Shown: positions 20,740 to 61,421 of the stretch, piece by piece
Layout of the letters: each line of letters begins with the position of its first letter
Numbering within the stretch: position 1 is the stretch's first letter
IMG/VR virus record: IMGVR_UViG_3300028490_000007
Span: 1 to 64,000 of that record
DNA length: 64,000 bases
Source: a virus
Strand: one strand, 5' to 3'
The notes under the pieces: generated by a model
The model's database searches: none
What the model was told of the DNA's origin: nothing
What the model saw: the letters and a program-made list of their open reading frames with translations, nothing else
Translations under genes and position numbers: made by a program

Positions 20740-22047
20740 ATGTTAACAAAGATAATAGACTTTCAGGTAGGACAAATGGAGATTGAGCACAGTTCTTGTT
20801 TTGGTGGCGTTTGCCCAATGACCAAGACTGCATCAGAGAACCCTCTTGAGAAGATCAACCAAAAGAAAAACCATGCATACCTACATGTTATTGCTATGGG
20901 TGCAGGTGACTTCTATGGAGAGAACAACAATGGTGACTTCTTCTACGAGAAAGACCTTAGAGAATATTACAAGACATTTGAGACAGCAGGTATTTTTGTA
21001 CAGCATTTCAACAAAGACCCTTCTAAGTCAATAGGTAATATTGTAAAGGCTATATATAATGAGGACATGCATCGTGTTGAGCTTCTTCTTGAGATAAAAA
21101 AGAGTAAAGCAAAAGATATCTATGATGATATCGAAGCAGGAAGAAGAATTAAAGTGTCAATGGGTGTTAAGGTTCCTCAAGAGATGTGTTCATATTGTGG
21201 CTCAATCACAAAAGGGTCTCTTGCCAATAGATGTAACCACTTGAAGTTCGAGATGCATGAACAGAAAGAGAATGGCCAAATTGTATATGCTATAAATATA
21301 CCTCCTATGAATTTCTTTGACATATCTGTAGTGCGTAAGCCTGCGGACACTCAAGGGCATGCTTTGTTTCAAAAGGTTGCATCAGAAGAGGAAGAATTTT
21401 CTATGCAGGACAAGGTAGCAGAACTTGTAAAAAGGATAGAGGCTATAGACGCTCTTCCTAATGCTGTAAGTGTAGACGAGATGGATAAATTCAGAAAAGG
21501 GTTCAGTCCAGAAGCTATAGTTAGAATAGTTAACTCAAAGCATATGATGTTCAAGCCATCAGAAGCACTGTTTATTGGGTCCAAGATGCCCAAGGAGGAG
21601 TTTTCTTCATGTCAGGCTACTTGTGATACTCCGGGCTTCATTAAGATCCTCATGGACAAGCTACATTCACAGCCACCATGTGCAATGATGAAACATGCTT
21701 CCGACACAGACTTGGACTACTCTAATGATTTTATAGCCAAGATAGAAGCTCGTACATTTTTAATCAAAGAAGCCATGAATGCAGTAAACAGCACAGACTT
21801 CTTTGGAAACCAGAAGAAGGCACGTCCTGCTTCTGTGGCAAGAAGGGCTTTTAATAGACATAAGTTTTCTCAATACAAAGTAAACTTTACTGATGGGAAA
21901 AGTGTAACTCTTTCAAGACAGGGGTTTGGTGTAACATCAGATATCCCTGCATACTATGTAGACCTTGTTGATGATGGGTTTGCTCACAATATCACTGGTG
22001 TACGTGCAAATGGAGATGAAGCAATCTTATATGCAGGAGAGAAGTAA
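20740..22047 (+). CDS. prohead (capsid maturation) protease, S78/U35-like
   Basis: 435 aa. The catalytic-type dyad is visible: H89 in F-V-Q-H-F-N-K-D and S140 in R-I-K-V-S-M-G-V-K-V, with the family's N-G-D-F-F turn at 64-68 before them. A zinc-like C150-x2-C153-x11-C165-x-H insertion follows, and then the N-F-F-D-I-S-V-V-R-K-P-A-D strand. This enzyme processes scaffold and capsid proteins during head assembly. The C-terminal 200 residues contain F-Q-K-V-A-S and T-K-T-A-S near the N-terminus, motifs repeated in other virion proteins, so it may also process itself. It is unusual that it lies far from the capsid gene and on the opposite strand. Confidence 0.75.
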   Translation: MLTKIIDFQVGQMEIEHSSCFGGVCPMTKTASENPLEKINQKKNHAYLHVIAMGAGDFYGENNNGDFFYEKDLREYYKTFETAGIFVQHFNKDPSKSIGNIVKAIYNEDMHRVELLLEIKKSKAKDIYDDIEAGRRIKVSMGVKVPQEMCSYCGSITKGSLANRCNHLKFEMHEQKENGQIVYAINIPPMNFFDISVVRKPADTQGHALFQKVASEEEEFSMQDKVAELVKRIEAIDALPNAVSVDEMDKFRKGFSPEAIVRIVNSKHMMFKPSEALFIGSKMPKEEFSSCQATCDTPGFIKILMDKLHSQPPCAMMKHASDTDLDYSNDFIAKIEARTFLIKEAMNAVNSTDFFGNQKKARPASVARRAFNRHKFSQYKVNFTDGKSVTLSRQGFGVTSDIPAYYVDLVDDGFAHNITGVRANGDEAILYAGEK

Positions 22048-23450
22048 TGAGTGGTCACGTTGGAGTTAAGTCTGGACGTGTAAAATCTGTCACAGAAGGC
22101 GAGACAGTAATTGAACTAGACAACGGTCATGAATTAACACTCCCTAGATATCTAGGAGAAAGTCCAAGAAGAGGAGCTGCTGTAGTAGTAGACTTCTCTT
22201 CTGGTGATGCACAAATATTCCCTGCTCCCCCACTAATGAAAGTATCTAAGCAAAAAAGATACATGAACTTCAATGCTGTTGAGAAAGACGGAACGAAGCC
22301 CACAGTAGAGCCTGAGCAGAAGCCTATGAAGAGAGGCGAGGGAAAGAAGGACGTTCAAGAGATTGCACAATATAGCCTGTTTGGTTTTGCGGATACTCCC
22401 TATGGAGCCAGAACCCTTACTGCAGGAAATGGTAACTTATGCTTTGCAAGTCCAACGGCTGTAGGTATGGCTACCTCTTGTAGTGCAAAATTTATTATAC
22501 GTGATGATGGAACATCAGAGTTTGTTACTCCACACTATATGGCACTGGAAGGAAGAACAATAGTAATTAGTTCATTCCATGATAATCTAAAAATAGAAAT
22601 AGATATATCTTCTTCAAAGCTTGGAAAGTCCCCTATTGATTTTACGGACTTAAAAGAAAAGCTTGCCAACTTCATGGTAGGAAAAGATATTGTAGAGCCA
22701 ATGACATATGAAGAGGCTTTCTTGGCAGTTTCTGGGTCTGCACCAGAAGCAGCATTTCTACAAATGTTCGGGCTTCATTTAGCTGAACTACTTGTGACTT
22801 TTAAGTGGGAAAGATTATTGTTCCGAGGAAATGAACAAACTTTTCACGAGGTATTTGGCTCCGTATCGTCACTGGATGCGATGTACCAATTCTGTCAAGA
22901 CTGCTACAATACAGACTCTGTGGCTGAACTGGAAGTATTTCTAATTGACGGACTTCCTGATGATCCAACAGAAGAAGTAAATGTTCCTTCTTGTGAAGAT
23001 AAGACATATGGAACTATTGGTTCAATGGGAGCTGTTGTAGGGCAAGACTTCTTTGAGATATTCGCTTTAAACATGACGCTTAAAGATGGTACAGTTATAG
23101 AATACAACAGGGCTAAAAGAGTGTATTCTCTATCCCATGGAATTATGGCTAGTCACCAATGGACATCTTCAAATAAGGGAGCTATCTATTGTGACAACTA
23201 TACTGTAAATATAGACTCGCTTGCGTTCCCTGATTTGACGGTGTCCCCATCGGCAGAGGGTTTTTGTGGTGGCACTATTGCTATCCCAACAATTACCTGG
23301 GGTGGAGACTTCAACTTAAACGTGCTTGGTGATGCATCTATTACAGCCGCAGGAGACACTCTCTTGTATGGTGGTGGTAGAGCAATTATCGGAGGTGGAT
23401 CAAAAGGTATTCTTATTGACTCCTCTGGTTCGGCAGCAATCACCCTATAG
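22047..23450 (+). CDS. baseplate spike-like protein (OB-fold plus beta-helix tip)
   Basis: 467 aa. The N-terminal 60 residues read as an OB-fold (G-R-V-K-S-V-T-E-G-E-T-V-I-E-L-D-N-G). The last 45 residues are a repeating beta-helix (N-L-N-V-L-G-D-A-S-I-T-A-A-G-D-T-L-L-Y-G) like the tips of gpV/gp5-type spikes. The middle part is not recognised. The start overlaps the protease stop by 1 nt. Probable role: membrane-piercing tail spike or hub. Confidence 0.6.
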   Translation: MSGHVGVKSGRVKSVTEGETVIELDNGHELTLPRYLGESPRRGAAVVVDFSSGDAQIFPAPPLMKVSKQKRYMNFNAVEKDGTKPTVEPEQKPMKRGEGKKDVQEIAQYSLFGFADTPYGARTLTAGNGNLCFASPTAVGMATSCSAKFIIRDDGTSEFVTPHYMALEGRTIVISSFHDNLKIEIDISSSKLGKSPIDFTDLKEKLANFMVGKDIVEPMTYEEAFLAVSGSAPEAAFLQMFGLHLAELLVTFKWERLLFRGNEQTFHEVFGSVSSLDAMYQFCQDCYNTDSVAELEVFLIDGLPDDPTEEVNVPSCEDKTYGTIGSMGAVVGQDFFEIFALNMTLKDGTVIEYNRAKRVYSLSHGIMASHQWTSSNKGAIYCDNYTVNIDSLAFPDLTVSPSAEGFCGGTIAIPTITWGGDFNLNVLGDASITAAGDTLLYGGGRAIIGGGSKGILIDSSGSAAITL

Positions 23451-23474
23451 AAAAACACATTTTTTGTGTATAAT
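23446..23474 (+). promoter_or_regulatory. putative sigma-70-like promoter
   Basis: A perfect TATAAT at 23469-23474, 30 nt before the next start codon. The -35 region (TATAGA) is weak. It lies in a 54-nt gap within the virion operon. Confidence 0.35.
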
Positions 23475-23504
23475 AACAGTAACTAAAAAAACAGGAGTAT
23501 CAAA

Positions 23505-24047: not shown

Positions 24048-24056
24048 GGTTAACCC

Positions 24057-25799
24057 ATGGATGCACTAAGAGAACTCAACAAGCTTATGCCAAGCGACGT
24101 ACAGTTTACTGGTGCAGACATGCCTTTAACTAAGGCATCTATAATGCCGAAGTTAACACAATTCGCTTCCAAACACCCTTCCCTCTACGCACAAAAGATA
24201 CACAAAATACGTGAACTCGGAGAAGAGCTTGCCTACTTAAATGGTCACAACATGGGACCAAAAGATTTAACATATTCAAACCAAAAAGATATTGATAAGC
24301 TTCTGTCCACCGAAGATGCTAAGGTTCGTAAGATGAGCCCAGAAAAAGCAAAGACGCATCTTATCAATGTATTTAATCAAGTCCAGAACATAGTTATGAA
24401 AAACAAGGATAACAACCTAGTGTCTCAGGCTGCTTCTAAGGGAAGAGGTAATCCTGCCACAGCTTCAAGGATTGGAGCAGGAGTTGTATATGCAGTAGAT
24501 ATGAATTCAGAGCCCTACCCCTTTATGATAAAGAACAGTTTATCTACAGGACTAAATGCTCATGAGCAATATGTATCTGGAGGACAAGCAAGATATGCTG
24601 CCGTTCAAGCAGCCGTATCTACTTCTGAACCAGGAGCAATGGGCAAGGTTCTTATTGCAAATACCGAAGACCTAAAGATCGCAGAAAAAGATTGTGGGAC
24701 AAGAAACGGTATCATGGTTCCGGTTATGGGGAATGATGCTATATCAAGATATGAAGCAGGAACGAACAAACTTGTAGATGAGCAATATCTAAAATCCTTG
24801 AGAGCAAGAGGCAAGCGTAAGATTAAAGTCCGATCACCAATAACTTGCAAGTCAAGACATGGCGTGTGCTCAATGTGTATGGGAAAAAATTCTAACGGCA
24901 ATCTTCCAACAGTAGGTCACAATGTTGGGATAGAGGCTGCTCAATCTATGTCTGAAAAAGCAATACAGCTCATTCTTAGTGCAAAGCATAATGTCGCAGG
25001 TAAGACAGCTTCTCATATTCCTACAGGATTTCAGGCAGCCAAGATACTGCTAAACTCGACAGAGAAATTCAAAGGGAAGGCGGCTGTATCCTCTATTGGT
25101 GGAAATGTCAAGTCTATACACAAGCTTACTACTGGTGGGTACAATATCAACATATCGGGAGTAGACCACTTTACTTCACAGCATGTTTCCCCGAAGGTTA
25201 CAGTTGGGTCAGTGGTAGACAAGGGAGATATCTTAACTAATGGTATCGCCTCTACAAAAGATATTCTATCCCACAGAGGCGTATTAGAAGCCAGAAAGTA
25301 TTTGTCTGACGAGTTGGACAAAGTGCATGGTGGCTCCATAGACAAGAGAAACTTTGAAGTTGTAAGTAGAGGGTATCTAAACCTCGTTAAACCGATGAGC
25401 GATAAGTCTCATGGCAATATGAAAACATTTGACGAATTTGTTCCAACTATAAATGGAACACATATGAAAATGATGAACACATCAGACAAGCAAATAACTA
25501 AAAAATTCTTAGCTGAACCGGCTCTGCATTTTAGCCCAGGTAAACAAATTACAAAAACAGTGGCTGGCTATTTAAAGAAAAATGGGGTAAAATCCGTTAA
25601 GGTTTCTCATACTCCTCTTGATTACACACCTGTATTCAAGACGTATGAGCAGAGACCTCTATTCAATAAGTCTATGTGGCAACAGATAAACTATAGAGGC
25701 ATCAAGAAGGGACTCACTGATGGACTACTGTCCGGAGGTGAAGAGGATCTTAATCATATAAAGTCTGATAGAGCCCGTTTCGCTCTAGGCATACTATAA
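24057..25799 (+). CDS. RNA polymerase beta-prime C-terminal-half homologue
   Basis: 580 aa. It aligns with bacterial RpoC from the bridge-helix region onward: S-K-G-R-G-N (126-132, compare S-G-A-R-G-N), I-K-N-S-L-S-T-G-L (158-166), E-K-D-C-G-T-R (210-216), V-R-S-P-I-T-C-K-S-R-H-G-V-C-S-M-C-M-G (258-276), and the trigger-loop block G-I-E-A-A-Q-S-M-S-E-K-A-I-Q-L-x5-H (291-311). All four zinc cysteines (C213, C264, C271, C274) and the trigger-loop histidine H311 are kept. The N-A-D-F-D-G-D catalytic motif is absent, since that half of beta-prime is missing. It sits among virion genes and contains no own promoter. It may be part of a split phage polymerase, or a structural protein derived from one. 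Confidence 0.85.
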   Translation: MDALRELNKLMPSDVQFTGADMPLTKASIMPKLTQFASKHPSLYAQKIHKIRELGEELAYLNGHNMGPKDLTYSNQKDIDKLLSTEDAKVRKMSPEKAKTHLINVFNQVQNIVMKNKDNNLVSQAASKGRGNPATASRIGAGVVYAVDMNSEPYPFMIKNSLSTGLNAHEQYVSGGQARYAAVQAAVSTSEPGAMGKVLIANTEDLKIAEKDCGTRNGIMVPVMGNDAISRYEAGTNKLVDEQYLKSLRARGKRKIKVRSPITCKSRHGVCSMCMGKNSNGNLPTVGHNVGIEAAQSMSEKAIQLILSAKHNVAGKTASHIPTGFQAAKILLNSTEKFKGKAAVSSIGGNVKSIHKLTTGGYNINISGVDHFTSQHVSPKVTVGSVVDKGDILTNGIASTKDILSHRGVLEARKYLSDELDKVHGGSIDKRNFEVVSRGYLNLVKPMSDKSHGNMKTFDEFVPTINGTHMKMMNTSDKQITKKFLAEPALHFSPGKQITKTVAGYLKKNGVKSVKVSHTPLDYTPVFKTYEQRPLFNKSMWQQINYRGIKKGLTDGLLSGGEEDLNHIKSDRARFALGIL

Positions 25800-25815
25800 A
25801 AACAAGGAGAAACAA

Positions 25816-26817: not shown

Positions 26818-27417
26818 ATGATTACATGTAAAGAACTAGAAAAGACCGCTGCCTCCGTGGAAGCAGACGGCTTTGAAGATGAAAACCAAGAGAGACTTGA
26901 GAAAACAGCACAGGCATTATACTTGCTTGACCACCTAGAGAAAGAGATAGCTTCTGACTTTAAGGGTGTTGATTTCGAGAAGACAGCCGGGTTCGGCAAA
27001 AAAATGACACGTGGATTAGCTCAGACAGCAGTTGTTGGTTTGGGCGTAGCTATGGCAGGTAAGCTTGCCGAGCATGCCGAAAAGTCATACGATAAGCATA
27101 TGTTCAATAAACACCAGAACGGTCTCATCGCTTTTGCAAGAAGAGAAAACCCTAGCCTTCAAGGTGTAAGCAATGGGAAAATGAAGATGTGGCTACGTAG
27201 TGCATATTCTGTTTCTCCCAAAGTAGCAAACGATCCAATGCTTGCCTCAACCTTTCTAAACACAGCTCATGCCGTAGGTGGTGTTGATTTAAACACTGCC
27301 AAGACAGTCAGCGATATAAATGCAAAAGGGGGAGGAGATTACTCAAAAGTATATGATGCAATTCGTGGATCATCTTCAAATCTCCCCTCTTATGCTATGT
27401 CTTCTTCAGGAGCGTAA
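26818..27417 (+). CDS. K-x-A motif virion protein
   Basis: 199 aa. The first 65 residues carry three copies of the E-K-T-A motif (residues 8-11, 28-31 and 57-60), followed by a hydrophobic helix (Q-T-A-V-V-G-L-G-V-A-M-A) and a helical C-terminal region. The motif-rich N-terminus looks like a propeptide that could be removed by the maturation protease. No known fold. It has its own promoter and a ribosome site (CGGAGTATTGACC). Confidence 0.6.
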   Translation: MITCKELEKTAASVEADGFEDENQERLEKTAQALYLLDHLEKEIASDFKGVDFEKTAGFGKKMTRGLAQTAVVGLGVAMAGKLAEHAEKSYDKHMFNKHQNGLIAFARRENPSLQGVSNGKMKMWLRSAYSVSPKVANDPMLASTFLNTAHAVGGVDLNTAKTVSDINAKGGGDYSKVYDAIRGSSSNLPSYAMSSSGA

Positions 27418-28451: not shown

Positions 28452-28823
28452 ATGAAAAAAGATATAAATGTAGCAGACTTGGTAGCTTCAGTTACTGACG
28501 AGCAAAATGAGAAAAAAGCACTTAACAAAACTGCTGGACTAGCTTCACTAAAAGAGCGTATGTCTGGAGGAACACTTTCTAAACATGCAGAAGATGCAAA
28601 AGTTGTAGCTGATGCGGTAGCTGATGAGATAGGTGTAAATTCACTTTCTTTGTCTCAACAACTCGAAAAAGTAGCCTCTGAAATGGAAGGTGCAAACTCA
28701 GTAGAGGACATTATCAAAATTGCATCGTCTTTAGACAACTCAGACTTGGCTCATATCTCAACTATCTCAGCAAAAATGGCTGACGTTGTATTTGCTGACC
28801 TTCAAAATAAACTAGAAGCATAA
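28452..28823 (+). CDS. K-x-A motif virion protein
   Basis: 123 aa, nearly all helical. It contains N-K-T-A-G, S-K-H-A-E, E-K-V-A-S and I-K-I-A-S in succession, the same motif as in other head and internal proteins here. Possibly a scaffold-like or internal protein processed during maturation. The ribosome site is AAAGGAACACGAA. Confidence 0.6.
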   Translation: MKKDINVADLVASVTDEQNEKKALNKTAGLASLKERMSGGTLSKHAEDAKVVADAVADEIGVNSLSLSQQLEKVASEMEGANSVEDIIKIASSLDNSDLAHISTISAKMADVVFADLQNKLEA

Positions 28824-28834
28824 GGAGATCCATC

Positions 28835-30661
28835 ATGGCATCAACTATATTAACAGGTAATGATTTCCTTACTAATAGTAACTTGGCTCTAGTTGGCCAA
28901 GATGGAAATGTGTCCATTAACAGAGTGCGTTCAAATGATTATGACGTTGCTCTTGTTTCAAGAGATGCATTCGACTTCACTACGGGTAATAAATCTGTCC
29001 GTTTTGTATTCAGCGTGGCTCCATATACAACTGCTGCAAGACCGGGTGTTTTCGGTGCCGGTGCAGTAGGTAGATTTGCAAGCCTTGTTGATGACGGAAC
29101 TTCTATTGAGTGGAAAGGTGATACTTTCAGTTCTCCTTGCCCAGGAACTCCAGATTGTCAAACTATGACAAAATACCAGTGTAATAAATACTACTCTGCA
29201 GATGCTTCAAGTTCACACTCTATCGTTAAGACAGGTCAGTGCTTTGGAACATCTGGCGACAATACTCATGGGCAACTAGATTTGACTACCGTTGAGACAA
29301 TAGAAGGTATCGCTTGTGGTAATGGGTTTACTGTAATCATGCGTAATACTGGAGTTGTTGAGGTTATCGGAAATGACCAAGGTGGGGACATTGTTGTTCC
29401 TGCATCATGTGTCACTTTTGATGAGAACGATAGACCCGTCTCTATTGTGGCAGGAGAAGACTTCTTTGTTGTGCTTAAGCGTGACGGTACAGTTGTGTCT
29501 GTTGGTTCTATTCTGACAACAGCATTCTCTACAATCGAAGAAACTATTGTTGAAATGTCAGCAGGTTCAAACTTTGTAGTTCTTCTGTCTTTATCTGGAC
29601 AGATCTTCAGTATCGGAGGAGCAGGAGCAAACGGTGAGTTAACTCCACCATCTATAAAGGCATTAAAGGTGTCTGCCAGTGCCAACAGAGCTGTTATTCT
29701 TGCAGAGAATGGTAATGTGTATGAATGGGGAGAAGGTCTTGCTGATGTCCAGCAGGTTCAATCTATTCCATCTGGCTCACAAGTTATAGATGTTATTGCA
29801 GGGGAAAGCTTTTCCATGGCAGTCCTTAAAGATAGATCTGTTGTTATCTCAGGTTCTGTGCCTGCATATCTTTCTGACATTACAGGAGAGAAGAGTGGTA
29901 ATGCTGAGAGTATTTCTGAAATGGATGATGCCTACGACATGTTCCCTATGCTTAGAAATATAACGGGCGTGAACATCATGGCAGGAGTTCAAGAAGATAA
30001 TCTTGATAGCACTTATCACAAATATGTAGCACCAGATAATACGGTTAAACCTATCGTTGTAGGAAGAGACGGATTTAGTTCTGTATTTACAGGTATACGT
30101 GGTGGCTTCAAAGGTGCTATTATTGCTAAGACAGACAATGGTGGAGATATGTGTTTTGACCTTAGAGGTTCAGAATACGACCCTTACACAGCAACAGGTC
30201 ACTTACCAATTTCAACTGACTTTATCACATCAAATGCGGCAGAGAAATATGAGGTTATAATCTCATTCAGTCCATTTGGTAAGATGATTAAGTTCAGAAA
30301 AGTAAGTGGTGAATATGCTCAAGATATGCCGTTCAAACATTTATCTGTTGAAGAGACAGGATATTCTGCAGGTCGTGTAGCCTTATACGTTAGAAATGCA
30401 AAGGACTTCGTTCTTGATTTTGCAGAAGTTACAGATGAGATAAATGCATCTATTCTTCCTGCTGACATACTGTATAGGGATATGGATACTGCGGTATTAC
30501 ACACTCAGGCTGCAGAGCTAGTAGTTGACTTGGCTGATGCTGTGGAAACTATTGGTGACGCTGTTACTAAGTCATCTGAGACTGTACGTTCTCTTAATGC
30601 GAACTACAAACAAAACTTGGCTGATATTTTCTCAAGACTTGAGACACTAGAGGCAAACTAA
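28835..30661 (+). CDS. virion protein with RCC1-like beta-propeller
   Basis: 608 aa. Residues of about 120-360 carry a series of RCC1-type units: G-Q-C-F-G-T-S-G-D-N-T-H-G-Q-L, G-N-G-F-T-V-I-M-R-N-T-G-V-V-E-V-I-G, A-G-E-D-F-F-V-V-L-K-R-D-G-T-V, A-G-S-N-F-V-V-L-L-S-L-S-G-Q-I. RCC1 repeats form seven-bladed propellers that bind proteins or sugars. The C-terminus has a helical trimerisation-type tail. The likely role is in a tail fibre or host-contact structure. Confidence 0.7.
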   Translation: MASTILTGNDFLTNSNLALVGQDGNVSINRVRSNDYDVALVSRDAFDFTTGNKSVRFVFSVAPYTTAARPGVFGAGAVGRFASLVDDGTSIEWKGDTFSSPCPGTPDCQTMTKYQCNKYYSADASSSHSIVKTGQCFGTSGDNTHGQLDLTTVETIEGIACGNGFTVIMRNTGVVEVIGNDQGGDIVVPASCVTFDENDRPVSIVAGEDFFVVLKRDGTVVSVGSILTTAFSTIEETIVEMSAGSNFVVLLSLSGQIFSIGGAGANGELTPPSIKALKVSASANRAVILAENGNVYEWGEGLADVQQVQSIPSGSQVIDVIAGESFSMAVLKDRSVVISGSVPAYLSDITGEKSGNAESISEMDDAYDMFPMLRNITGVNIMAGVQEDNLDSTYHKYVAPDNTVKPIVVGRDGFSSVFTGIRGGFKGAIIAKTDNGGDMCFDLRGSEYDPYTATGHLPISTDFITSNAAEKYEVIISFSPFGKMIKFRKVSGEYAQDMPFKHLSVEETGYSAGRVALYVRNAKDFVLDFAEVTDEINASILPADILYRDMDTAVLHTQAAELVVDLADAVETIGDAVTKSSETVRSLNANYKQNLADIFSRLETLEAN

Positions 30662-33600
30662 TGGGTATCGATAACGACTGGTTACTAGAAAACTTATCTG
30701 GAAGCTACTCTCTCGGTGCAGTAGATGATGCTGTTGACTCGCTTATTGGCGAGTACGACACGCTCATCGACAAAATAACTGATGATAAAAGAAACTATAT
30801 GCTGGAGGCTGTAAGCACTATGAAAGAAAAGATAATTACTTCGAGGGTCGAAAATGTACTTGAATTGATCGACTCGACACAATTTACGGATGGCGATGAA
30901 TTCAGGGTCATAGGAACGGGTATTACCGTTACGGCACGAAAGTATATCGATGGAGAGACAGGAAGCCCTGCATGGACCATAGAAAAGATAGAGCAAGCAA
31001 TGAGTGGTTCTTTCGAGGAAGTTTCAAAAATAGAGACTGCTGCAGTACCAGGTGGGTATTCTAGTGTCTCTAACTCTATGACCAAGAAAGACTTGGCGGA
31101 GACTAGGAATGCTATTGCATCAAACACGGATACAATTACTGTTCCTTTTGCAGAACTTGAGACAGTCGCTACTTCTGACGGGTATTCCATACTTGACATA
31201 TCTACTTTCATTACGAGGTATATCCCGGCACTCACAGAAGGTCAGATAGATCTCGTAAAGCTTAATATAGCATCAGAGCTGAAAAGTGTAAAAGTGTCTG
31301 TGTCTAATGTATCCTTTATTGAACACAATATGACAGATGGTGAGCTTAAGGGGTCTGGGTCTAAGATTACAGACTATACAGAGACAACAGCAGCCTCGTC
31401 AGCATCTCCGTATAGTGATACTCTACATGTTGTGCTTAACTATGCAGATGACTATGTAGTTAATGTAGGTGGAGTTGACTACACATATTCTGCATCAGAC
31501 TTTGAAACAGCAGAAGATGTTGCAGCAGGCATAGAAGGTGAGCTTGGAAACGATACTTCTCTAAACGTATCTACAGATACAGGATATTGGTCTAAAGTGT
31601 TTCAGAACGGAAACGGAGATAGAGTCTTTGGTTGGTATGCTGAAAATACAGATGATGGTGTTTCTTATGAAGTTCAAATGATAGTCCCTACTGGTGTAGC
31701 TGACTTTGGCATAGAGCAAGATGGTGTAAATCCAGAAAAAATAATAATCACTTTCGAGCATGATGGTTTTGATCCTGTGTATCCACCTATTGCAGATATC
31801 AGGGATGCCGTAAATGCTTTTGCCGATGTGGATATTAGAGTCGTAGTTATGCCAGGGTTCTCTGATGGCGACGAGTATAATACTGCAGACAATGTAACTC
31901 TTGAGCAAGGTGCTTCCAAGATAGTTATAGAGTCAGCTCAACAGCAAACCATAACTGTATCTACAGCCAAAGCCCACAAGACAAAATTAGTTCACAATAC
32001 GGACTTCTCTGCAGCTACAGCACAGATAGGGGTGTTCGAGGTCGTAAAGTTCAACCCTACAAACACATACTCTGTAACTATTGGTGGACAGCAATTAGAT
32101 TTAGACCCGTCAGCAAATGGCAATGAGTCAGTTGTAGATGAGACGTCTCTTGCTCAAAAAATTGCGTCTATGGTTAATGCTGCGGCACTAGGTGTAGTTG
32201 CATCATCTACTGGAACAATAGTTACTATAGTGGTATCATCTGCAGGCTCTACTATTACAGTGTCTAACTCAGGAGAATTCAATTATGTGCAGCCTATAAG
32301 TAGAGACACATTGCTTAGATATGACATCAGAAACATTCCTAATGTTAATGCATCTACAATATCTCAATTAAGAAAATCAGGTAATGTGGTAACATCAAAA
32401 GGAGAGCCTTTAAATAAAACTGATGTGAGCAAATTATCAACTTCAGGGATCGTGTACAGTGACTCATTTATTATGTTTCCACAAGTTCCTACTCTTGTAG
32501 ACGAGACAGAGAATTTCGTGCAGAAGATTGGAAGATCAGCAGTTGCACTTGAGCAGACAGTCAAGATAGAGAAAGAGAAAATAGCTACTGCAGGAGATCT
32601 TGTTTCTCCGATAGTTAGAAGTATGGCTAAGCCATTATTTCCACTTTACTCAACAGATCAAGCAAAGTCTAGTAGATGGTTCTTTGTTGAAGCAGGGGCA
32701 AACAGTTTGGCGGCAAGGTCAACGATAGGTATCGCATTGTCTACGATAGCTCCAAAAGATTACGAGAAGCTTGTGTTGAAAGATGATAACGCTACATTCT
32801 CGTCAGTAAGAGAAAAAAGACTTCCTAGTGTAGGGCAGAACTATGAGTCTATCATCAGTCTACTTTCCGAGAAGACACAATCATATAATGCAAGTGGGCA
32901 GAAAGCAATTATTCCTATCCCCTCAGATATCGTTTCGTCGAACATGATTGACATAATAGAGGCATACCTAACTAAAGTACAACTTGATGGCTTTATTAAG
33001 TTTGCCTTGCTTCCTCAAATAGTTTCCGGTGACGAGTTTATGAAGATGGACAAACTGAAGGCTGAAGTAGCCAGTATCTTTTCAACACTAGATCTTGTTG
33101 GCACGATTGTCTCAGTGAGCGATAAATATAGAGTGGTTGTTGACTTTGAAGATTTGGAGCCAGATGTGTGGGCTATTAGAGATGCTTTCACCGGCACAAC
33201 TTTTGAAGTTGAGCATGTTGTTCCTGACTTTACATGGGAGACAAAAGCTCCATTCCCTTCAACGGACATAATAGAGCACACAGGTACAAGATATGTAATC
33301 AAGCCTGAGATAATGAATAGCTTTATTATACTAAAAGACCCAGACTCATTATACAAGGCTCTTCTTGAGCTTACCATACAGATAGACGACTCTCTTATGG
33401 AGCAAAGGTTTATAGCACTAGCAGGGTCGTACGTCATTGATGCCTCTAAGGTATTAGAACTGTATGCAGATGAACTGTTCGCATCGTATGTGTTTGGTGT
33501 AAACGAGGCCGAGACTCCTCCTGAAAACAACTACGGGCTTGGGGGCATCCCAATAGATGCTACTGTGACAATGAGTAAGCTTTACTTTAGAAACATGCGT

Positions 33601-40615: not shown

Positions 40616-42061
40616 ATGACATTTTTTCAAAAAGTAGCAAGCTTCGGACAAGCAGTTCAAGCAAGCGAGGACGTAGAAAGCATCGTAAAAGTTGCAGCAG
40701 AGAGTGATGTATCACGTAACGATCTTATTGTATTACACAACCTAACAGTAGGTAATGTATACACAGGTGAAGATATTGTAAAAGTTGCAGAGGACGAAGC
40801 AGATAGTATTCTACTTGTAGCTGTATCAGCATACGAGAAAGTAGCATCTGGAGAAATCGACGAAGCACAAGCTATCTCAATGGTAGAAGAAGCTGGTCTT
40901 GTAGCAGACGATCTTTATGACGTTGCAGGTCTTATTGACAAGCAAGCATCAGAAGCTGGCGTTGTTGCAGATCAAGATGTATGGGAAAAAGTAGCTGAAG
41001 CTCATGAGTTCCTTGTAGAAGCAGGACTAGATCCAGTAGCTTCAATGGAATTTGCTGAAACTTATTCTGCTGCAGAAGATGGAGAAGCTCAAGATAAAGT
41101 AGCTTCAGAATTTGACGGGCTAGACGAAGAGTCTTTTGACAAAATCGCAGAAGCTCATGAATTCCTTTCAGACATTGAAGGTGTTTCGCTTACTGATCTT
41201 ATGGATGAGTATGACAAAGAAGCAGGTTCTAAAGTTGACGCTGCAAAAAAAGCACTTAACTCTGTGAAAGACGATCTTTCAGGAGAAAAGTCTAAGCGTG
41301 TAGCTAAGTCAATGAAATCTGGTCTTTGGAATAAAAAATCTAAAGAAGATGTTGGAATGAAGTCATTCGGTGTCTATTCGCAGAAGAACCTTAAAGGTAA
41401 GCAGAAAGCTGTAGAAAACCGTAAGCATTTAGCACGTGGTGGAGCAGCAGTAGCAGCACTTGGTGCAACTGGTGCAGCGGCAGGCTCAATGAGTAAAGAA
41501 GCATCAGAAGCATTCCAAGCAGAAGATGCAGTATGGGAAAAAGTAGCTGAAGCTCATGAGTTCCTTGTAGAAGCAGGACTTGATCCAGTAAATTCAATGG
41601 AATTCGCTGAGACTTTCTCTGCAGCAGAAGATGAAGAGGCTCAAGATAAAGTAGCTTCAGAGTTTGATGGTCTTGATGAAGAGTCAATCGATAAGATTGC
41701 TGAAGCACATGAGTTCCTTTCAGACATCGAAGGTATTTCGCTTACTGACCTTATGGGTGAGATTGAGAAAGAAGCCGGTTCTAAAGTAGACGCTGTTAAA
41801 AAAGGTCTAAAGAGAGCTAAAGATGACTTTACTGGTGCAAATGCTAAAGCAGTTGATAAGTCAATGAAATCTGGTCTTTGGAATAAAAAATCTAAAGAAG
41901 CTGCAGGCGTTAAATCGTTTAAAGGCTACAGCAACAAGACACTTAAGGGTAAGCAGAAAGCTGTTCATACTCGTAAGAACTTAACTCGTGCAGGTGTTGT
42001 TGCCGGTGGTACTGCTGTTGCAGCAACTGGTGCAGACGCTACATTTAACGGTAGAGGGTAA
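40616..42061 (+). CDS. tandem-repeat virion protein rich in K-x-A motifs
   Basis: 481 aa. After a short unique start (T-F-F-Q-K-V-A-S-F-G-Q) it contains two near-identical units of 184 residues. Each carries E-K-V-A-E, D-K-V-A-S, D-K-I-A-E and K-E-A-G-S motifs and a basic segment (K-S-M-K-S-G-L-W-N-K-K-S-K). Within a unit the E-K-V-A-E-A-H-E-F-L block recurs as D-K-I-A-E-A-H-E-F-L. The many potential cleavage sites and high helix content suggest an internal head or scaffold protein. It has its own promoter. Confidence 0.65.
   Translation: MTFFQKVASFGQAVQASEDVESIVKVAAESDVSRNDLIVLHNLTVGNVYTGEDIVKVAEDEADSILLVAVSAYEKVASGEIDEAQAISMVEEAGLVADDLYDVAGLIDKQASEAGVVADQDVWEKVAEAHEFLVEAGLDPVASMEFAETYSAAEDGEAQDKVASEFDGLDEESFDKIAEAHEFLSDIEGVSLTDLMDEYDKEAGSKVDAAKKALNSVKDDLSGEKSKRVAKSMKSGLWNKKSKEDVGMKSFGVYSQKNLKGKQKAVENRKHLARGGAAVAALGATGAAAGSMSKEASEAFQAEDAVWEKVAEAHEFLVEAGLDPVNSMEFAETFSAAEDEEAQDKVASEFDGLDEESIDKIAEAHEFLSDIEGISLTDLMGEIEKEAGSKVDAVKKGLKRAKDDFTGANAKAVDKSMKSGLWNKKSKEAAGVKSFKGYSNKTLKGKQKAVHTRKNLTRAGVVAGGTAVAATGADATFNGRG
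40979..42061 (+). repeat. 552-bp tandem duplication inside a virion gene
   Basis: Unit 1 starts at about 40979 and unit 2 at about 41531, offset by 552 bp (184 codons), so the reading frame is preserved. The first 60 bp are almost identical at the DNA level; divergence grows later in the unit. This indicates a fairly recent in-frame duplication or ongoing homogenisation. Confidence 0.8.
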
Positions 42062-42333: not shown

Positions 42334-42394
42334 CTTTCACCCTCCCATCCAAGGATGCGAGGACTGAGGGCCCATGAAAAGACAAGGACATAGA

Positions 42395-43450
42395 ATGGAC
42401 TATAAAACACTAGCCATATCAATAGCATCAGCAGAAGACCCTTACGGTGAATTTGCAAAAGAAGCGTCGGATTTAGACGAAGTGCATAAGACAACTCTAG
42501 CAAGAGAAGTTAATAAGCAAATGTTTATAAGCAGACTAGACGGACGAGAAGGTGATGGACATATCGACTTCGACGTTATAGAACCTGAGTTGAAAGATAC
42601 TCATGTGACAAAAAGTGTAGGAGATCCAACTGTGGAAAAAGTAGCATCAGAACAGCCTAGCAAATCTCCTCTTGAGAAGAGAGCTATGGTTGAAGACTCT
42701 ATGTTTGTCGTTGCACCAAGACAGACTATTAAAGCAAAATCAACAACAGGTGGAAGTGCTAAAACTTTCAGAAAAATAGCAGAGCATATTATAGACGATG
42801 ACTTAGATAGAATTTCAGACAAAGAGAAACAAGCTTTTGATGAAACTAAAGTCAGAGCTGTAGCTTTATTGAATGATATGTTTGGTGCAGAGCTAGAAGG
42901 CATCACTAAGATGGCTGACGATGCCTCTGAGCTTAGATCCGTGATAGGTGCAGCCATTGGTAAGGGATTGAGTAATGTAGTCCCTGAGATAGTAGCTATA
43001 TCAAATGACGCAGAGAGTACGCTTCTTAAGGTGGCATCAGTTGATTTAGATGACACTAGAGCTAAGGCTGTCGATGCTTCACTTGACTATATGGTTAATC
43101 TGAACGAAGCAAAAGCATTGGTGAAACAAGCTTCCACACAACAAGAACTTGATAAGCTTGCATTCATCGCCCCATTGCTAGGGGGAATAGCTCGCTTGGG
43201 TTTTAATGTAGCCAAGGGTGCAGCCAAAGGTGGCCGTGCTCTTGGCAAGGGTGCGTGGGGGACAATGAAGCTACCTGGTAGAGTTACCGGTGCGACTAAG
43301 AACCTGCTCACTTTGAAAAACCCAGCTAAGGGTTGGAAGGATGGAGGGGGCTTAATGACAACATTAGGAACCACTGCTGTTCTTGGAGGGGCTGCTCTTA
43401 CAGCAGGTCCAACTATGGATAAATATCAAGAAATGACACAACGCATATAG
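42395..43450 (+). CDS. K-x-A motif virion protein, possible scaffold or internal protein
   Basis: 351 aa from the ATG after AAGGACATAGA; an ATG at 42374 is an alternative. It carries A-K-E-A-S, E-K-V-A-S, E-K-R-A, R-K-I-A-E, T-K-M-A-D, L-K-V-A-S, K-Q-A-S and D-K-L-A. The C-terminal 90 residues are glycine/alanine-rich with hydrophobic segments (A-K-G-A-A-K-G-G-R-A-L-G-K-G-A-W-G). The long motif-rich part and different C-terminus would suit a protein that is cut into several pieces. Confidence 0.6.
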   Translation: MDYKTLAISIASAEDPYGEFAKEASDLDEVHKTTLAREVNKQMFISRLDGREGDGHIDFDVIEPELKDTHVTKSVGDPTVEKVASEQPSKSPLEKRAMVEDSMFVVAPRQTIKAKSTTGGSAKTFRKIAEHIIDDDLDRISDKEKQAFDETKVRAVALLNDMFGAELEGITKMADDASELRSVIGAAIGKGLSNVVPEIVAISNDAESTLLKVASVDLDDTRAKAVDASLDYMVNLNEAKALVKQASTQQELDKLAFIAPLLGGIARLGFNVAKGAAKGGRALGKGAWGTMKLPGRVTGATKNLLTLKNPAKGWKDGGGLMTTLGTTAVLGGAALTAGPTMDKYQEMTQRI

Positions 43451-51374: not shown

Positions 51375-52807
51375 TAAAATCAACAGGTCCTAATTCTAAT
51401 GAGTTTGTCAAAAATGTGATGGAGCAAGTATCTTCTTTGGTTGAGGTAACATACGGTCCCAGTGGTGGATTTGTAGTCTTATCAAATGGAAATACCTCAC
51501 TAGCAACAAAAGATGGAGTTTCTGTTATTAGAGCACTCGTCTCCAATGATGATTTAGAACAAGCAGTCATTAGTGTGATACAAGAAGCAGCCTTGAATAC
51601 TCTTTCTAAAGCAGGTGATGGTACGACGACAACCATTGTTCTTGCAAACCAACTACTCAAATCATTCTCTACTTACGACTATATGAAAAAAGAAGAAATC
51701 ATCAAGTCTGTAAAAGAGGAAATCCGAAAAAAAAGCAAACCTGTAACTATTGGGTCAGATGCACTTACGTCTATCGCTATGACCTCAACATCTGGAGATA
51801 AGTCATTGGCGAAAACAGTATTGGAAGCTTTCACCATAGCAGAGAGCCACGGTATCTCTGGCGTTATTGCAGAGCCTCATTTAGGAAGATGTACTTCCGT
51901 GGATACTGTTGATGGAATAAGCTTTACCGGTAATATGATTGACACTATATTCTATGATAGCCAAGAGCTTAGAACAAAGAGTGCTATTGATCCACATATT
52001 ATATTTGCTATGGATGAGGTGTCTGGTGAAGATGATATAGTTGAACTCATAACTACCTGTGTAAACAAAGGGGTTGAAGATCTAATTATTATCGCTCCAT
52101 CTTTTGCAATGACCTCCTTATCTGCTCTGTCTATAAACCATAAGGTCTCAATGAACCTAATGCCTATTGCAGTAGATGGTGGTGATGCAGTCCGAACAAA
52201 AATGGCTATTCAGGCTATTGCCACTGCTTTAGGAGCAACTATTGTTGGTGAAGAAAGTGGAGTGTCTATCGGCGATGTCTCAGAGGATATGATTATCCCC
52301 GTAGGAAAGATCTCTATATCTGGTAAATCTGTTGTTGTCTCAGGATACGATAACAGTTCAAAGGAGAGCATCAACGAACTCGTCAATAGATATGAGTCAA
52401 AGCTTAGAGCCGTTGCTTCAGATGAAGAAAGAGACATGATTAAAACTCTCATCTCAATCCTCAAGAAAAAAATGGTAAAAGTCATAGTTGGAGGGCACAC
52501 TTTAAACTCAATCACTGAGAGAAAAGACCGTGCTGACGACTGTATAAACTCTGTAGAACTAGCACTAAAAGGCGGTGTCGTTCCAGGAGCAGGACGAGCA
52601 TATACCAACATGGGGATAGGCATCAATACTGGCACGAATATAGATAAGGCTGTAGAGGCTGTATCTAGGATAATCAACAAAGGGGAAGTGTCTCCTACAG
52701 CACTCCAAACCCTAGACCCGACAATAGTCGCAGAGATCGTCGCAGAGCAGGCTATAGAGCTTGCATTCATGCTAGGTATGACAAGAGCTGTCGTACTTAC
52801 ACAATAA
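51371..52807 (+). CDS. GroEL-like chaperonin
   Basis: 478 aa versus about 548 for bacterial GroEL. ATPase residues are in place: D48 in T-K-D-G-V-S, D83 in A-G-D-G-T-T-T and D390 in R-A-D-D-C before G-G-V-V-P-G-A-G-R-A. The G-P-S-G motif is at 29-32. The apical region is reduced and the C-terminal G-G-M tail is absent. It is encoded directly behind its GroES partner and between the tape measure and the tail chaperone, so folding of large virion proteins is the likely job. Confidence 0.85.
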   Translation: MIKSTGPNSNEFVKNVMEQVSSLVEVTYGPSGGFVVLSNGNTSLATKDGVSVIRALVSNDDLEQAVISVIQEAALNTLSKAGDGTTTTIVLANQLLKSFSTYDYMKKEEIIKSVKEEIRKKSKPVTIGSDALTSIAMTSTSGDKSLAKTVLEAFTIAESHGISGVIAEPHLGRCTSVDTVDGISFTGNMIDTIFYDSQELRTKSAIDPHIIFAMDEVSGEDDIVELITTCVNKGVEDLIIIAPSFAMTSLSALSINHKVSMNLMPIAVDGGDAVRTKMAIQAIATALGATIVGEESGVSIGDVSEDMIIPVGKISISGKSVVVSGYDNSSKESINELVNRYESKLRAVASDEERDMIKTLISILKKKMVKVIVGGHTLNSITERKDRADDCINSVELALKGGVVPGAGRAYTNMGIGINTGTNIDKAVEAVSRIINKGEVSPTALQTLDPTIVAEIVAEQAIELAFMLGMTRAVVLTQ

Positions 52808-56868: not shown

Positions 56869-56869
56869 A

Positions 56870-57496
56870 TTATACCTCCTGCGTATTGTTTCGTATATAT
56901 GATTTACGCATTCTAGCACGAAGCTTATTAAGACCACTATAGTACGCACCATTTGACATACCAGTATGCTTCAGTGCCTTTGGCGTTGACATGCCTTTCT
57001 CTATAGTCTCTGATATCTTCTTTTCTTTACCAGACAGGTCAGGCAATAGTGACTGCATAGAGACATAATTTGTCCCTCCACCAAACTTGTCAGTTACGAC
57101 AGCTTTTATTTGACCCATCTTCTTATATTTGTTTACAAACTTTGACTTAAAGCCTGTGTGCTTAGCTAGTTCTGCATCTGTAGCATCTCTACCATGCATC
57201 ATGTAAAGCTCATCATTAGCTGTTCTCAACTTGTTTATTGCCATACCTACGTCTTCACTAACTTTTAAGTTAGAACTAGACTCGTGTACGTCTCTCTTCA
57301 GTTTGTTGAGGTGATTGCTTAGGTGAGTTTTAAATGAGGCATTCTTTGTTTTATCAAAAGTACGCTCTGCATTTTGCGAGTACGTATATAGCTTATAATC
57401 CAGTTCAGCAGGAGATAGCTCTGACGAGTATGTCCGTTTGAAGTGGTTTATTGTATCCATATGGCCTGAGACCATAGGACTATATACGTTGCTCAT
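56870..57496 (-). CDS. sigma-70-family-like protein
   Basis: 208 aa. Region 2-like: F-D-K-T-K-N-A-S-F-K-T-H-L (47-59; compare F/Y-D-P-S-K-G-x-F-S-T-Y). Region 3-like: L-R-T-A-N-D-E-L, then H-G-R-D-A-T-D-A-E-L-A-K-H-T-G (101-115). Region 4-like: L-S-G-K-E-K-K-I-S-E-T-I-E-K-G-M-S-T-P-K, then a recognition-type helix S-N-G-A-Y-Y-S-G-L-N-K-L-R-A-R-M (154-196). The order of all three regions supports a divergent sigma factor, although the region 2 core-binding helix is not strongly conserved. It is encoded within the head gene cluster. Confidence 0.55.
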   Translation of the reverse strand: MSNVYSPMVSGHMDTINHFKRTYSSELSPAELDYKLYTYSQNAERTFDKTKNASFKTHLSNHLNKLKRDVHESSSNLKVSEDVGMAINKLRTANDELYMMHGRDATDAELAKHTGFKSKFVNKYKKMGQIKAVVTDKFGGGTNYVSMQSLLPDLSGKEKKISETIEKGMSTPKALKHTGMSNGAYYSGLNKLRARMRKSYIRNNTQEV

Positions 57497-57811: not shown

Positions 57812-57821
57812 TTTATATCCT

Positions 57822-58091: not shown

Positions 58092-58101
58092 GGTAGATCC
58101 T

Positions 58102-59076
58102 TTATTTTTGTTGCGTAGCCACAAACATAGCTATAGCTTCTTTCTCTTGTGGACTTGCAGCATCTGTAACATTCTTTAACATGTTTATGTCAAGTGTTCC
58201 TTCGCTAAACAATTCCGATACAAGAGGTCGAGGAAAGACGTCTGTCCAGTCCTCTGCATCTATTGATGCAATCTTTTCCGTTGGAACTTCTTCATCCCCT
58301 ATGCTATACACATCAGACACTTGACCTGGTATAACAAGTTCTAAGATAGCTTCTTCAGCAGTCTTCTCGAACCCGTTAACTTCATCAAGATCTAACATAT
58401 CAAACACAAGAGAGGCAACCTTCTCTACTGAGTAGAGATTGGTCCCACTTAATTCAGATGCTAACTTTTCATAGCTATCATCCCCCGTAAGTAGTTTTCT
58501 GTCATGTAGAATGCTTCGTGCCGTTGAGATGTCTATAGTACCATACAACCCAAGAGAAAGAGTAGTGTCAGATACAGGCTCGCCAAGCTCTTCAGCTTTC
58601 TTAACCAGTTGTCTGTTAGCAACTACTAAATCTTCCGAGGACAGCATACTAGCTACCTTCTCAAGTGCACTGCTTGACATCCTAAGAGTGTCAGCATCCA
58701 CAACAGGAAGTTTACGTTGAGCTGGAAGAAGGAAATCAGAAGCGTCTAATTGCTCAGGCTCTGATGCCACTTTTTCCAACGAACCGATTTGAACATCTAG
58801 TCCAAACAAAGCACATGCTTCTTCACACGCTTCCTTGACAAAGCCGGGAACGTCTTCGTTCCCTTCAAGGTAAACACTTGACACAAGAGCATGTGCAGGT
58901 GAGTATATTGGGAACAACTTTTCATCCGGCCAAGCGAAAGCCTCTTTTGTGAGATCATTTCGTTCGTCCATAGGCAACGCTGCAACTTTTTCAAGTCGGT
59001 GTGCTGCCCCATCAGTCTCGGCAATTTTTTCCTTAAGGATTATCATATCCACGTCATTGAGTGCATCAATTAGCAT
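58102..59076 (-). CDS. K-x-A motif head protein
   Basis: 324 aa, almost all helix. It carries at least ten K-x-A motifs (for example E-K-V-A-A, T-K-E-A-F, V-K-E-A-C, E-K-V-A-S three times, E-K-L-A-S, E-K-T-A-E, E-K-I-A-S). It lies in the head operon, so it is a strong candidate for a scaffold or internal protein that is processed. The start follows AAGGAGGACACC. Confidence 0.65.
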   Translation of the reverse strand: MLIDALNDVDMIILKEKIAETDGAAHRLEKVAALPMDERNDLTKEAFAWPDEKLFPIYSPAHALVSSVYLEGNEDVPGFVKEACEEACALFGLDVQIGSLEKVASEPEQLDASDFLLPAQRKLPVVDADTLRMSSSALEKVASMLSSEDLVVANRQLVKKAEELGEPVSDTTLSLGLYGTIDISTARSILHDRKLLTGDDSYEKLASELSGTNLYSVEKVASLVFDMLDLDEVNGFEKTAEEAILELVIPGQVSDVYSIGDEEVPTEKIASIDAEDWTDVFPRPLVSELFSEGTLDINMLKNVTDAASPQEKEAIAMFVATQQK

Positions 59077-59173: not shown

Positions 59174-59185
59174 ATTAGCCCCTTA

Positions 59186-59641: not shown

Positions 59642-59650
59642 ATCAGATCC

Positions 59651-60628
59651 TTATGCTTCGATGTCGGTGAATACACCCTTGTAAACACCTTTAGTGTTAC
59701 CAATAGCGTGTGCGATATACGCTTCACTGTCCATAGTCATCATATCTCTATCAACTTCCATGTAAGAAGTGTGATCTTGAAGGATGAAGAAGTGTCCATA
59801 CATGTCTTGAGGAGCGAAAGTATAAATTTCGTTGTTCTTAACAATGTGTGACTTGATTGTTGTAACGATCTTCTTATTCCAGAAGTCAGAGATGTTATCC
59901 ACACCATCTTCCCAGAATTTAGAAACAACGCTATCACCAACTTCTTGCATAGTCATATGCATAAGCTCTTGGATAAGAGTCTCTGTCAATAGAACAGTTT
60001 TGTTTGCGATACGGTTACGTGTCGGCATTTGGAACAAGAACACCAAGTTTGACTTGTCTAATGTTTCACCATTATCGAAGTATACTGTTTGTCCTGAGAA
60101 ACGCTTGTTACCTTGAGTAGTAAGGTTTCCACCGTTTGCTGCTTTAAACGCTGTCTCTTCGTCACCAAGAACTTGGTTAACTCCACCCATAACTGTCAAG
60201 TCTTCAACTTCATACATTGCTTCCGAGATACGATCTCTAAACAATTTCTTGTAGTCAGTCTTAACTGTCATCATTTCCATTTTTGATTTACGGATCTTCT
60301 CAGATACAACTTTTTGGAAGTAAACTGTGTAACGATCTGTTTCATGGTAACGGAACTCACCACGACCACGTAAAGGAACTGTCATTGCACGTGCATCAAC
60401 ATCTCTCTCTACCATGATTGCTGGTTGGTCTGTATGCTCAGTAGGAACTAAGTCTTTTGGTGAAATATATGTAGGTTCAACGATCTTACGAGCGAAGCCT
60501 TTTTCACGAATTTTGTCTTGGATAAAAAGTGAGATACCCTCTGCTGCTTCTTTAACAAATTCAGGGTCACTGAATAGTCTTGAAACGAACTGGCTTGAAC
60601 TCACTGTAGTAGATACTGCTGGTTTCAT
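59651..60628 (-). CDS. major capsid protein candidate (HK97-like)
   Basis: 325 aa. Position (between decoration-type and head genes, two genes after the terminase), size and pattern (N-terminal helical part, F-R-Y-H-E-T-D strand, long spine-helix segment R-D-R-I-S-E-A-M-Y-E-V-E-D-L, glycine-rich P-domain-like loops, G-V-F-T-D-I-E-A end) fit an HK97-fold capsid. F-V-K-E-A-A-E-G near residue 24-31 is the K-x-A motif and could mark an N-terminal processing site. The ribosome site AAAAGGAGAACAC is strong. Confidence 0.65.
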   Translation of the reverse strand: MKPAVSTTVSSSQFVSRLFSDPEFVKEAAEGISLFIQDKIREKGFARKIVEPTYISPKDLVPTEHTDQPAIMVERDVDARAMTVPLRGRGEFRYHETDRYTVYFQKVVSEKIRKSKMEMMTVKTDYKKLFRDRISEAMYEVEDLTVMGGVNQVLGDEETAFKAANGGNLTTQGNKRFSGQTVYFDNGETLDKSNLVFLFQMPTRNRIANKTVLLTETLIQELMHMTMQEVGDSVVSKFWEDGVDNISDFWNKKIVTTIKSHIVKNNEIYTFAPQDMYGHFFILQDHTSYMEVDRDMMTMDSEAYIAHAIGNTKGVYKGVFTDIEA

Positions 60629-60639
60629 GTGTTCTCCTT

Positions 60640-61071
60640 TTAACCAAGTACGATAGCGAGCCAGTCGGTTCCACGACCAACAACTGCACCAACTTCAATA
60701 GTATTTGTTCCGTCAACGTGAACAATAACACCATCTTTTAAAGATACATTGTCGCCTGCTGCAAACGCCGTACCATCCTCTTCATACATTTTAGTGTGAA
60801 TTAACATCTCACCAAAAAAACCTTCTACTACGCCGGCAGGTTTCATTCTGTCAAGCATATCATTGTAGTGGCTATCTTCTGTTACAAGAAAAAAAGCTTT
60901 CTTTGTATCAGTAAGTGTAATTTTTGCTCCGTCATAACCAACAAACTCACCAGACTTTACAGCCTCGCCATTCGCCAATTCGATTTCTAGTTTCGGTAAA
61001 GCAAGAAAATCTGGAGACACAATGTGTACCATTTCTCGTCTACCGAATACCTTATCTGTTTTATAACCCAT
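60640..61071 (-). CDS. head decoration-like protein
   Basis: 143 aa, beta-rich, with repeated glycine turns (S-G-E-F-V-G-Y-D-G-A-K-I and A-A-G-D-N-V-S-L-K-D-G). It sits immediately upstream of the capsid gene, the usual place for decoration proteins. Ribosome site AGAAGGAATTTCCT. Identification by context and fold style. Confidence 0.55.
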   Translation of the reverse strand: MGYKTDKVFGRREMVHIVSPDFLALPKLEIELANGEAVKSGEFVGYDGAKITLTDTKKAFFLVTEDSHYNDMLDRMKPAGVVEGFFGEMLIHTKMYEEDGTAFAAGDNVSLKDGVIVHVDGTNTIEVGAVVGRGTDWLAIVLG

Positions 61072-61094
61072 AGGAAATTCCTTCTGTTTTAATT

Positions 61095-61421
61095 TTATTC
61101 AAAGTCACTAGGTGACTCGCCTGAGAGGATCATGTCCAGTCTCGCTTCCGAAGATAAGTCTGAACTCATCGATGGAAGGTCGTCTGCCGATGACCCAAAT
61201 CCGTTTCCACTTCTAAATGAAAAACCTTCTTCCGCCTCTTTCTGCAGTGCGGTTTCATGTTTAACATCAGAAGGATCAGAAATCTGGTCCTTCTCTAGGC
61301 TTGCTACCTTCAATAACAATTCGTCTCTCTCAGATGTGATAATTGCTTTTGCGTCAGTAAGATTTTGTATCTCTGTTGCCGCAGCTCTCAACTGAGAAGC
61401 GACATGTTGTCTTGTGTGCAT
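61095..61421 (-). CDS. K-x-A motif head-region protein
   Basis: 108 aa from the ATG after AAGGGACTACT; a start 15 nt upstream lacks a ribosome site. N-terminal coiled coil (L-L-L-K-V-A-S-L-E-K-D), then L-Q-K-E-A-E, then an S/D-rich flexible end. It may be a scaffold-type protein. It is the first gene downstream of the best minus-strand promoter. Confidence 0.55.
   Translation of the reverse strand: MHTRQHVASQLRAAATEIQNLTDAKAIITSERDELLLKVASLEKDQISDPSDVKHETALQKEAEEGFSFRSGNGFGSSADDLPSMSSDLSSEARLDMILSGESPSDFE

Follow-up and report, generated by a model that had tools for sequence, protein, structure and literature searches.

Introduction

The prohead protease of bacteriophage T4 uses the cleavage code L/I-x-E. 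This enzyme, gp21, is described to fragment the core proteins and to trim the N-termini of the capsid proteins (PMC5694885). For the phiKZ/SPN3US prohead proteases (gp245 in SPN3US), self-cleavage and many internal head substrates are reported, and for SPN3US the code A-X-E with a preference for Ser at P1' (PMC10052503). Herpesvirus assemblins are described to cut after a P1 Ala with Ser or Thr at P1' at their release and maturation sites; the examples given for pseudorabies virus are YLQA-T and the presumed VQA-S (PMC4498786). Here, we analyzed a 64,000-base stretch of DNA (the window), which comprises bases 1-64,000 of the 77,122-base uncultured virus record IMGVR_UViG_3300028490_000007, and a short motif, K-x-A-[SGEA], that recurs in its head-associated proteins. 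We conclude, with a probability of roughly 90%, that the phage's own assemblin-fold prohead protease, encoded at 20740-22047, recognizes this motif and cleaves at it, with alanine at P1. In the open-access literature searched, no description of K-x-A as a prohead protease code was found. In its proposed mode of action the system resembles those of T4 and phiKZ/SPN3US, in which a single protease with a three-residue grammar cleaves itself, trims the capsid and shreds the core proteins.

Enrichment of the motif in head-associated proteins

The preliminary description of this DNA had noticed the motif in eight named proteins, including a site near the N-terminus of the capsid candidate, and had proposed a maturation cleavage code. 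All eight proteins exist and all carry the motif (a single copy in the capsid protein), with 44 copies versus 8.0 expected from residue shuffles, whereas the other 78 open reading frames (ORFs) of the record contained 26 copies versus 32.6 expected. The gene that had been placed at 42395 indeed carries six copies, but its longest ORF starts at 42374. The form E-K-V-A-S, which had been described as frequent, does occur, but it is a minority form with six copies across the 77-kb record, and it was rejected as the defining motif because it is too narrow. The better form of the motif is [LMIF]-x-K-x-A-[SEAG]; when V was also allowed at the first position ([LMIFV]-x-K-x-A-[SGEA]), 32 copies versus 2.1 expected were present in the eight proteins and 5 versus 8.8 elsewhere in the record. 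The 40616 protein is internally duplicated at an offset of 184 residues, with 135 identities, and this raises its motif count. When this protein was excluded, 29 copies of K-x-A-[SGEA] versus 4.8 expected remained, a number reached in none of 1,000 shuffles. The permuted controls A-x-K, K-A and K-x-x-A were not enriched in the window record.

The close relatives of the window phage are the IMG/VR contigs G001 (187,664 bases), G004 (97,197 bases) and G005 (165,427 bases); the capsid proteins of G001 and the window are 98% identical. In the homologous proteins of these contigs, K-x-A-[SGEA] was found 32 versus 8.4, 30 versus 4.0 and 33 versus 5.1 times, respectively, and the other proteins were at expectation. 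A long protein at 45445-51036, which from its length and place is probably the tape measure, contained 5 copies versus 6.9 expected. It is thus not enriched, and the motif is not carried by all virion proteins. Within the window record, only a subset of head-associated proteins is enriched in the motif.

Tests without preselection of proteins

Because the eight proteins had been chosen for having the motif, tests without protein selection were run. Among invariant residue pairs (gaps of 0 to 5) in alignments of the 44 families common to four genomes, K-x-A ranked first, with 29 versus 6.6 expected. For a wider sample, a search of viral contigs with the window protease alone as query yielded no match, whereas a five-protease alignment as query retrieved 152 relatives, of which the best 80 were kept. 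Forty-nine non-redundant representatives were taken from these best 80 of 152 loci, and the protease ORF of each representative and the capsid proteins were removed. In the 381 ORFs that lie no more than 2.5 kb from the 49 proteases, K-x-A was first among 2,352 pairs (1,571 versus 744, z 30), while it was weak in the 312 ORFs farther away (398 versus 345, z 2.8); the families are related by descent, and counts across relatives are not independent events.

The distant named relatives of the window phage are Salmonella phage Arash, on which no paper was found in the open-access literature searched, and three Vibrio phages; their capsid proteins are about 29% identical to that of the window. The 251 annotated coding sequences of Arash were split by the depositors' product names into 63 of virion type (structural, portal, capsid, tail, RNA polymerase beta) and 188 others. 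K-x-A-[SGEA] occurred 69 times versus 42.9 expected in the virion-type set and 39 versus 36.6 times in the others, and the values for E-K-x-A-[SGEA] were 13 versus 2.3 and 4 versus 2.3, respectively. The permuted motifs A-x-K and K-A were flat, and K-x-x-A reached 54 versus 43.6 in the virion set. The most motif-rich Arash proteins (145213, 148209 and 149568) surround the protease and capsid genes. The comparison with non-virion genes, which the preliminary description had proposed as a check, therefore bore out its expectation both in the head-associated subset of the window record and in the virion-annotated proteins of Arash.

The protease and its own sites

By its PHROG match, the 20740 protein falls among the head maturation proteases. 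When its structural model was compared with solved structures using VIA-align, with matches over model residues 39-216, T4 gp21 was the top match (Z 11.4, root-mean-square deviation 2.8, 129 residues aligned), followed by the proteases of varicella-zoster virus (Z 10.1), pseudorabies virus (9.7) and herpes simplex virus 2 (8.2), with identities near 10%. The top five matches exceeded unrelated MCE-domain entries, which lay at 6-7. On the modelled fold, the enzyme belongs to the assemblin class, of the T4 gp21/herpesvirus protease type. An alignment of the window protease and 48 of the 49 representatives (L054 was left out) showed that H89, S140 and D194 are invariant in 49 of 49 sequences, and from this conservation S140 and H89 are likely to be catalytic.

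Four copies of the motif are present in the protease itself (Table 1). At the first of them the residue between K29 and A31 is variable, with at least eight kinds in the same alignment. The model is confident for a catalytic core of about residues 35-209, while residues 1-30 and 211-238 are disordered. All four sites lie in or at segments with a predicted local distance difference test (pLDDT) score below 50, and such segments make up 20% of the chain. The K-x-A sites thus mark the borders of the folded enzyme.

The N-terminal K-x-A site was also present in 10 of 10 relatives of the protease from bacterial contigs, half of which are labelled as Desulfovibrionaceae genera, and K-x-A was again the top pair among the neighbors of these proteases (262 versus 160). 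The contigs (loci L135-L144) carry the labels Desulfovibrio piger, Desulfovibrio sp., Bilophila, Mailhella and others; they are possibly prophages or co-binned phages that hint at hosts. Most loci with a related protease also encode a capsid protein in their flanks, and in Arash about 2.5 kb separates the protease gene from the capsid gene. Near the window protease gene, a separate piece of RNA polymerase beta-prime (Rpb1 domain 5; 24057-25799, plus strand) has a relative in Arash and is possibly a virion RNA polymerase subunit.

The capsid protein and the phage G cut

A comparison by hhalign matched the window capsid protein to gp27 of Bacillus phage G (PDB 6wkk) with a probability of 99.6 and an E value of 6e-24, and by this sequence match it is homologous to an HK97-fold capsid protein of solved structure. 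The alignment of related capsid proteins had 50 rows, two of which were C-terminal fragments and were not counted. In 48 of 48 proteins with an intact N-terminus, K-x-A is present within the first 45 residues, mostly as G-[LM]-x-K-x-A.

The major capsid protein of phage G is reported to have 282 residues from the gene and 255 in the mature form, based on N-terminal sequencing (PMC5646251, an mBio 2017 article on jumbo phage capsids). By arithmetic, the cut would fall after A27, GRVALA/QAMA, if only the N-terminus is removed. In an ungapped comparison of gp27 with the 16 proteins of the K-[VIL]-A subclade, the alanine of K-x-A fell on residue 27 of the G protein, with a score of 19.4 compared to -9.1 for the next register. 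The cut position is therefore supported by published N-terminal data of one distant relative. The entry 6wkk lists 280 residues of gp27 from residue 1, and the listed sequence is uninformative on the processed N-terminus.

Phage G also encodes gp19, a homolog of the window protease that is 33.7% identical to it across 43% of the window sequence. The gp19 protein has the sequences LVKTA, LEKVAS and LLKIAS, at positions that correspond to the arrangement in the window protease. Within the initial 50 kb of the phage G genome, the portal-to-capsid block contained 7 copies of [LMIFV]-x-K-x-A-[SGEA] versus 1.2 expected and the remainder 12 versus 3.8, and permuted forms were close to expectation.

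Comparison with known cleavage codes

In the eight named proteins, the T4 code [LI]-x-E was not enriched (25 versus 24.6) and was rejected as the code of the window phage. The phiKZ-type code [SAG]-x-E was likewise rejected (59 versus 51.9, not enriched), and A-x-E alone gave 32 versus 22.2, or 18 versus 14.3 without the duplicated 40616 protein. The herpes-like form [VLI]-x-A-[ST] was also not enriched and was rejected. Because the P1-Glu codes were not enriched, the window protease stands outside the P1-Glu specificity group. T4 gp21, which has the nearest solved fold, shares the P3-x-P1 grammar, while the phiKZ/SPN3US proteases have Glu at P1 and the window code has Ala. Herpesvirus assemblins share both the fold class and the P1 Ala with the window system, but their sites cited above lack the Lys at P3.

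In the actinophages ET08, Myrna, E3 and Stormageddon, [KR]-x-A-[SAGE] was found at about twice the expectation, and all four capsid proteins contain [LF]-G-R-[FV]-A near residue 15. A code family [L/M/F]-x-[K/R]-x-A/ might be common to one branch of large tailed phages, comprising the uncultured relatives, Arash, phage G and the Bxz1/Myrna/E3 actinophages, the latter with Arg for Lys. Its P1 Ala and frequent P1' Ser would match herpesvirus assemblin sites and not the P1-Glu codes; in that case, P1-Ala would be a candidate for an ancestral state that connects the phage proteases with those of herpesviruses. We put this forward tentatively, with the odds somewhat against it.

Subsite profile and alternative explanations

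The residues around K-x-A were profiled near the related proteases. P5 is L, M, I or F, and E and V are favored at P4. At P2, Q, V, E, T and I are favored and G, P, D and N are disfavored; beta-branched V/I/T occurred 448 versus 279 times and the helix formers A/L/K/M/R 428 versus 526 times, while the helix former E was also enriched. P1' favors S (296 versus 82), E (218 versus 94) and A (203 versus 117) and disfavors P (10 versus 41.9), K and I. The alternative raised in the preliminary description, a structural, heptad-like packing element of long helical core proteins that is not a cut site, gains some credit from the richness of the core proteins in K, A and E, but it is a poor match to this profile: the fixed residues at i, i+2 and i+4 are out of step with a helix, V/I/T are overrepresented and A/L/K/M/R underrepresented at the middle position, and proline is depleted at P1'. 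Nor would it explain why the motif recurs at constant positions of the capsid proteins and at the borders of the protease's disordered ends. The i, i+2, i+4 spacing and the beta-branched P2 are better fitted by an extended substrate in a cleft, and we regard a helical repeat as very improbable.

A slightly better, though still small, chance is given to a short linear docking or targeting tag that would bring proteins into the prohead by binding to the scaffold or the protease and would stay uncut. Many proteins carry the motif near the N-terminus, and T4 head proteins are described to use N-terminal capsid-targeting peptides (PMC5694885); the T4 peptide is itself removed, so that targeting and cleavage can coexist. 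A mere tag would not account for motifs on both sides of the protease's own catalytic domain, for the P1' selectivity, or for the capsid cut in phage G, which is no more than one residue from the homologous position. That the counts merely reflect composition or lineage, i.e. K- and A-rich paralogs of common ancestry, seems scarcely credible: the duplication within 40616 and the closeness of G000 and G001 would inflate numbers in this way, but shuffles keep the composition, permuted motifs are not enriched, the motif is retained where the flanks diverge, and the invariant-pair test contradicts it.

Several results weigh against the cleavage code proposed here. Foldseek alone gave no significant PDB match for the protease model (best E 0.008, unrelated; T4 gp21 E 0.06), and the fold assignment therefore rests on VIA-align and the PHROG match. 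When phage G gp27 was compared with the 19 proteins of the K-[EQ]-A subclade, to which the window protein belongs, the best register placed the alanine on residue 26, and a profile alignment of the phage G cut with the code was also off by one residue. The published cut thus meets the code alanine exactly in the K-[VIL]-A subclade and misses it by one residue in the K-[EQ]-A subclade. The two capsid proteins are homologous and gp27 loses its N-terminus after residue 27, but its site, V-A-L-A/Q, keeps only the P1 Ala, while the P3 Lys is replaced by Ala, so that a lysine may not be an absolute requirement at this position. In a weak model of the 58102 protein, built from five sequences, six of the nine sites fall within ordered and mostly helical regions, which would also favor a helical repeat. 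In the distant relatives Erwinia phage Y3 and Achromobacter phage Motura, K-x-A was not enriched. For the window phage itself, we infer the cut after Ala, its attribution to the 20740 protease and the fate of each substrate.

On the other side, the motif is enriched in, and restricted to, head-associated genes of the window record, it is conserved at fixed places, and the fold of the protease model matches those of T4 gp21 and the herpesvirus proteases. The sites flank the catalytic domain of the protease, sit near the capsid N-termini and agree with the phage G cut exactly or within one residue, depending on the subclade. Together, these observations support the reading as a maturation code.

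Further motif-bearing proteins and neighboring genes

Table 1. Positions of the protease, the capsid protein, their predicted cleavage sites and the other motif-bearing proteins in the window (aa, amino acids)
Feature	Position	Strand	Length	Motif sites	Remarks
Prohead (head maturation) protease, assemblin-like fold	20740..22047	+	435 aa	K29, K212, K225, K318	
K29-T-A31, predicted N-terminal self-cleavage site	20824..20832	+			K and A invariant in 49/49 aligned proteases
K212-V-A214/S, predicted cut at C-terminal edge of catalytic domain	21373..21381	+			K 43/49, A 42/49
Head-associated protein	26818..27417	+	199 aa	3	
Head-associated protein	28452..28823	+	123 aa	4	
Candidate core/internal head protein	40616..42061	+	481 aa	15	Internal duplication
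Candidate core/internal head protein	42374..43450	+	358 aa	6	Start probably 42395
Candidate scaffold/core protein	58102..59076	-	324 aa	9 (0.6 expected)	Capsid operon
Major capsid protein	59651..60628	-	325 aa	1	Single predicted cut near the N-terminus, after K26-E-A28; matched to phage G gp27 by hhalign
Codons of K26-E27-A28	60545..60553	-			Predicted capsid cleavage after A28; region homologous to phage G cut
Small protein between terminase and capsid genes	61095..61436	-	113 aa	2	

The homologs of the 58102 protein contain 6, 7 and 8 sites, and at least eight K-x-A columns are common to all four proteins; with the scaffold alignment as query, only four relatives were retrieved. The 61095 protein has homologs with two sites each in G004 and G005, and none was found in G001. 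No function was assigned to the core proteins by PHROGs, and Pfam yielded nothing above the cut-offs. Additional unnamed motif-dense ORFs, which lie beyond the region covered by the window, were observed in G001 at 64556-69302 (locus L019, 4556-9302) and in G005 at 157436-159808, with 3 to 6 extended sites each and no PHROG match; they are candidates for additional head proteins.

The large terminase of the window phage matches PHROG 675. A chaperonin pair lies in the structural gene region (51120-52807, plus strand), with Cpn10 (GroES-like, E 7e-9) followed directly by Cpn60 (GroEL-like, E 8e-19). A sigma-like protein (Sigma-70 region 3; 56870-57496, minus strand) is homologous to an Arash sigma factor, and a 1,390-residue protein with a C-terminal PKD domain is encoded at 30661-34833 (plus strand).

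Discussion

Under the cleavage code proposed here, the 20740 protease would free itself from its flanking extensions inside the assembled prohead and would trim about 28 residues off the N-terminus of the capsid protein. It would also cut the multi-site scaffold and core proteins (58102, 40616, 42374 and others) to small pieces, and their breakdown would make room for DNA.

With the motif, head proteins could be read across a large and mostly uncultured group of big phages, in which such proteins have hardly any homologs. This group includes phage G, which has long been studied for its size and would now fall under the code. Any protein dense in [LMIF]-x-K-x-A could be taken as a candidate for the head or core and its mature N-terminus could be predicted, so that sequence alone would suffice to name the capsid, scaffold and internal proteins that uncultured genomes encode. 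The drift of prohead protease specificity between P1-Glu and P1-Ala would become testable in available phages, i.e. Arash, G and relatives of Bxz1.

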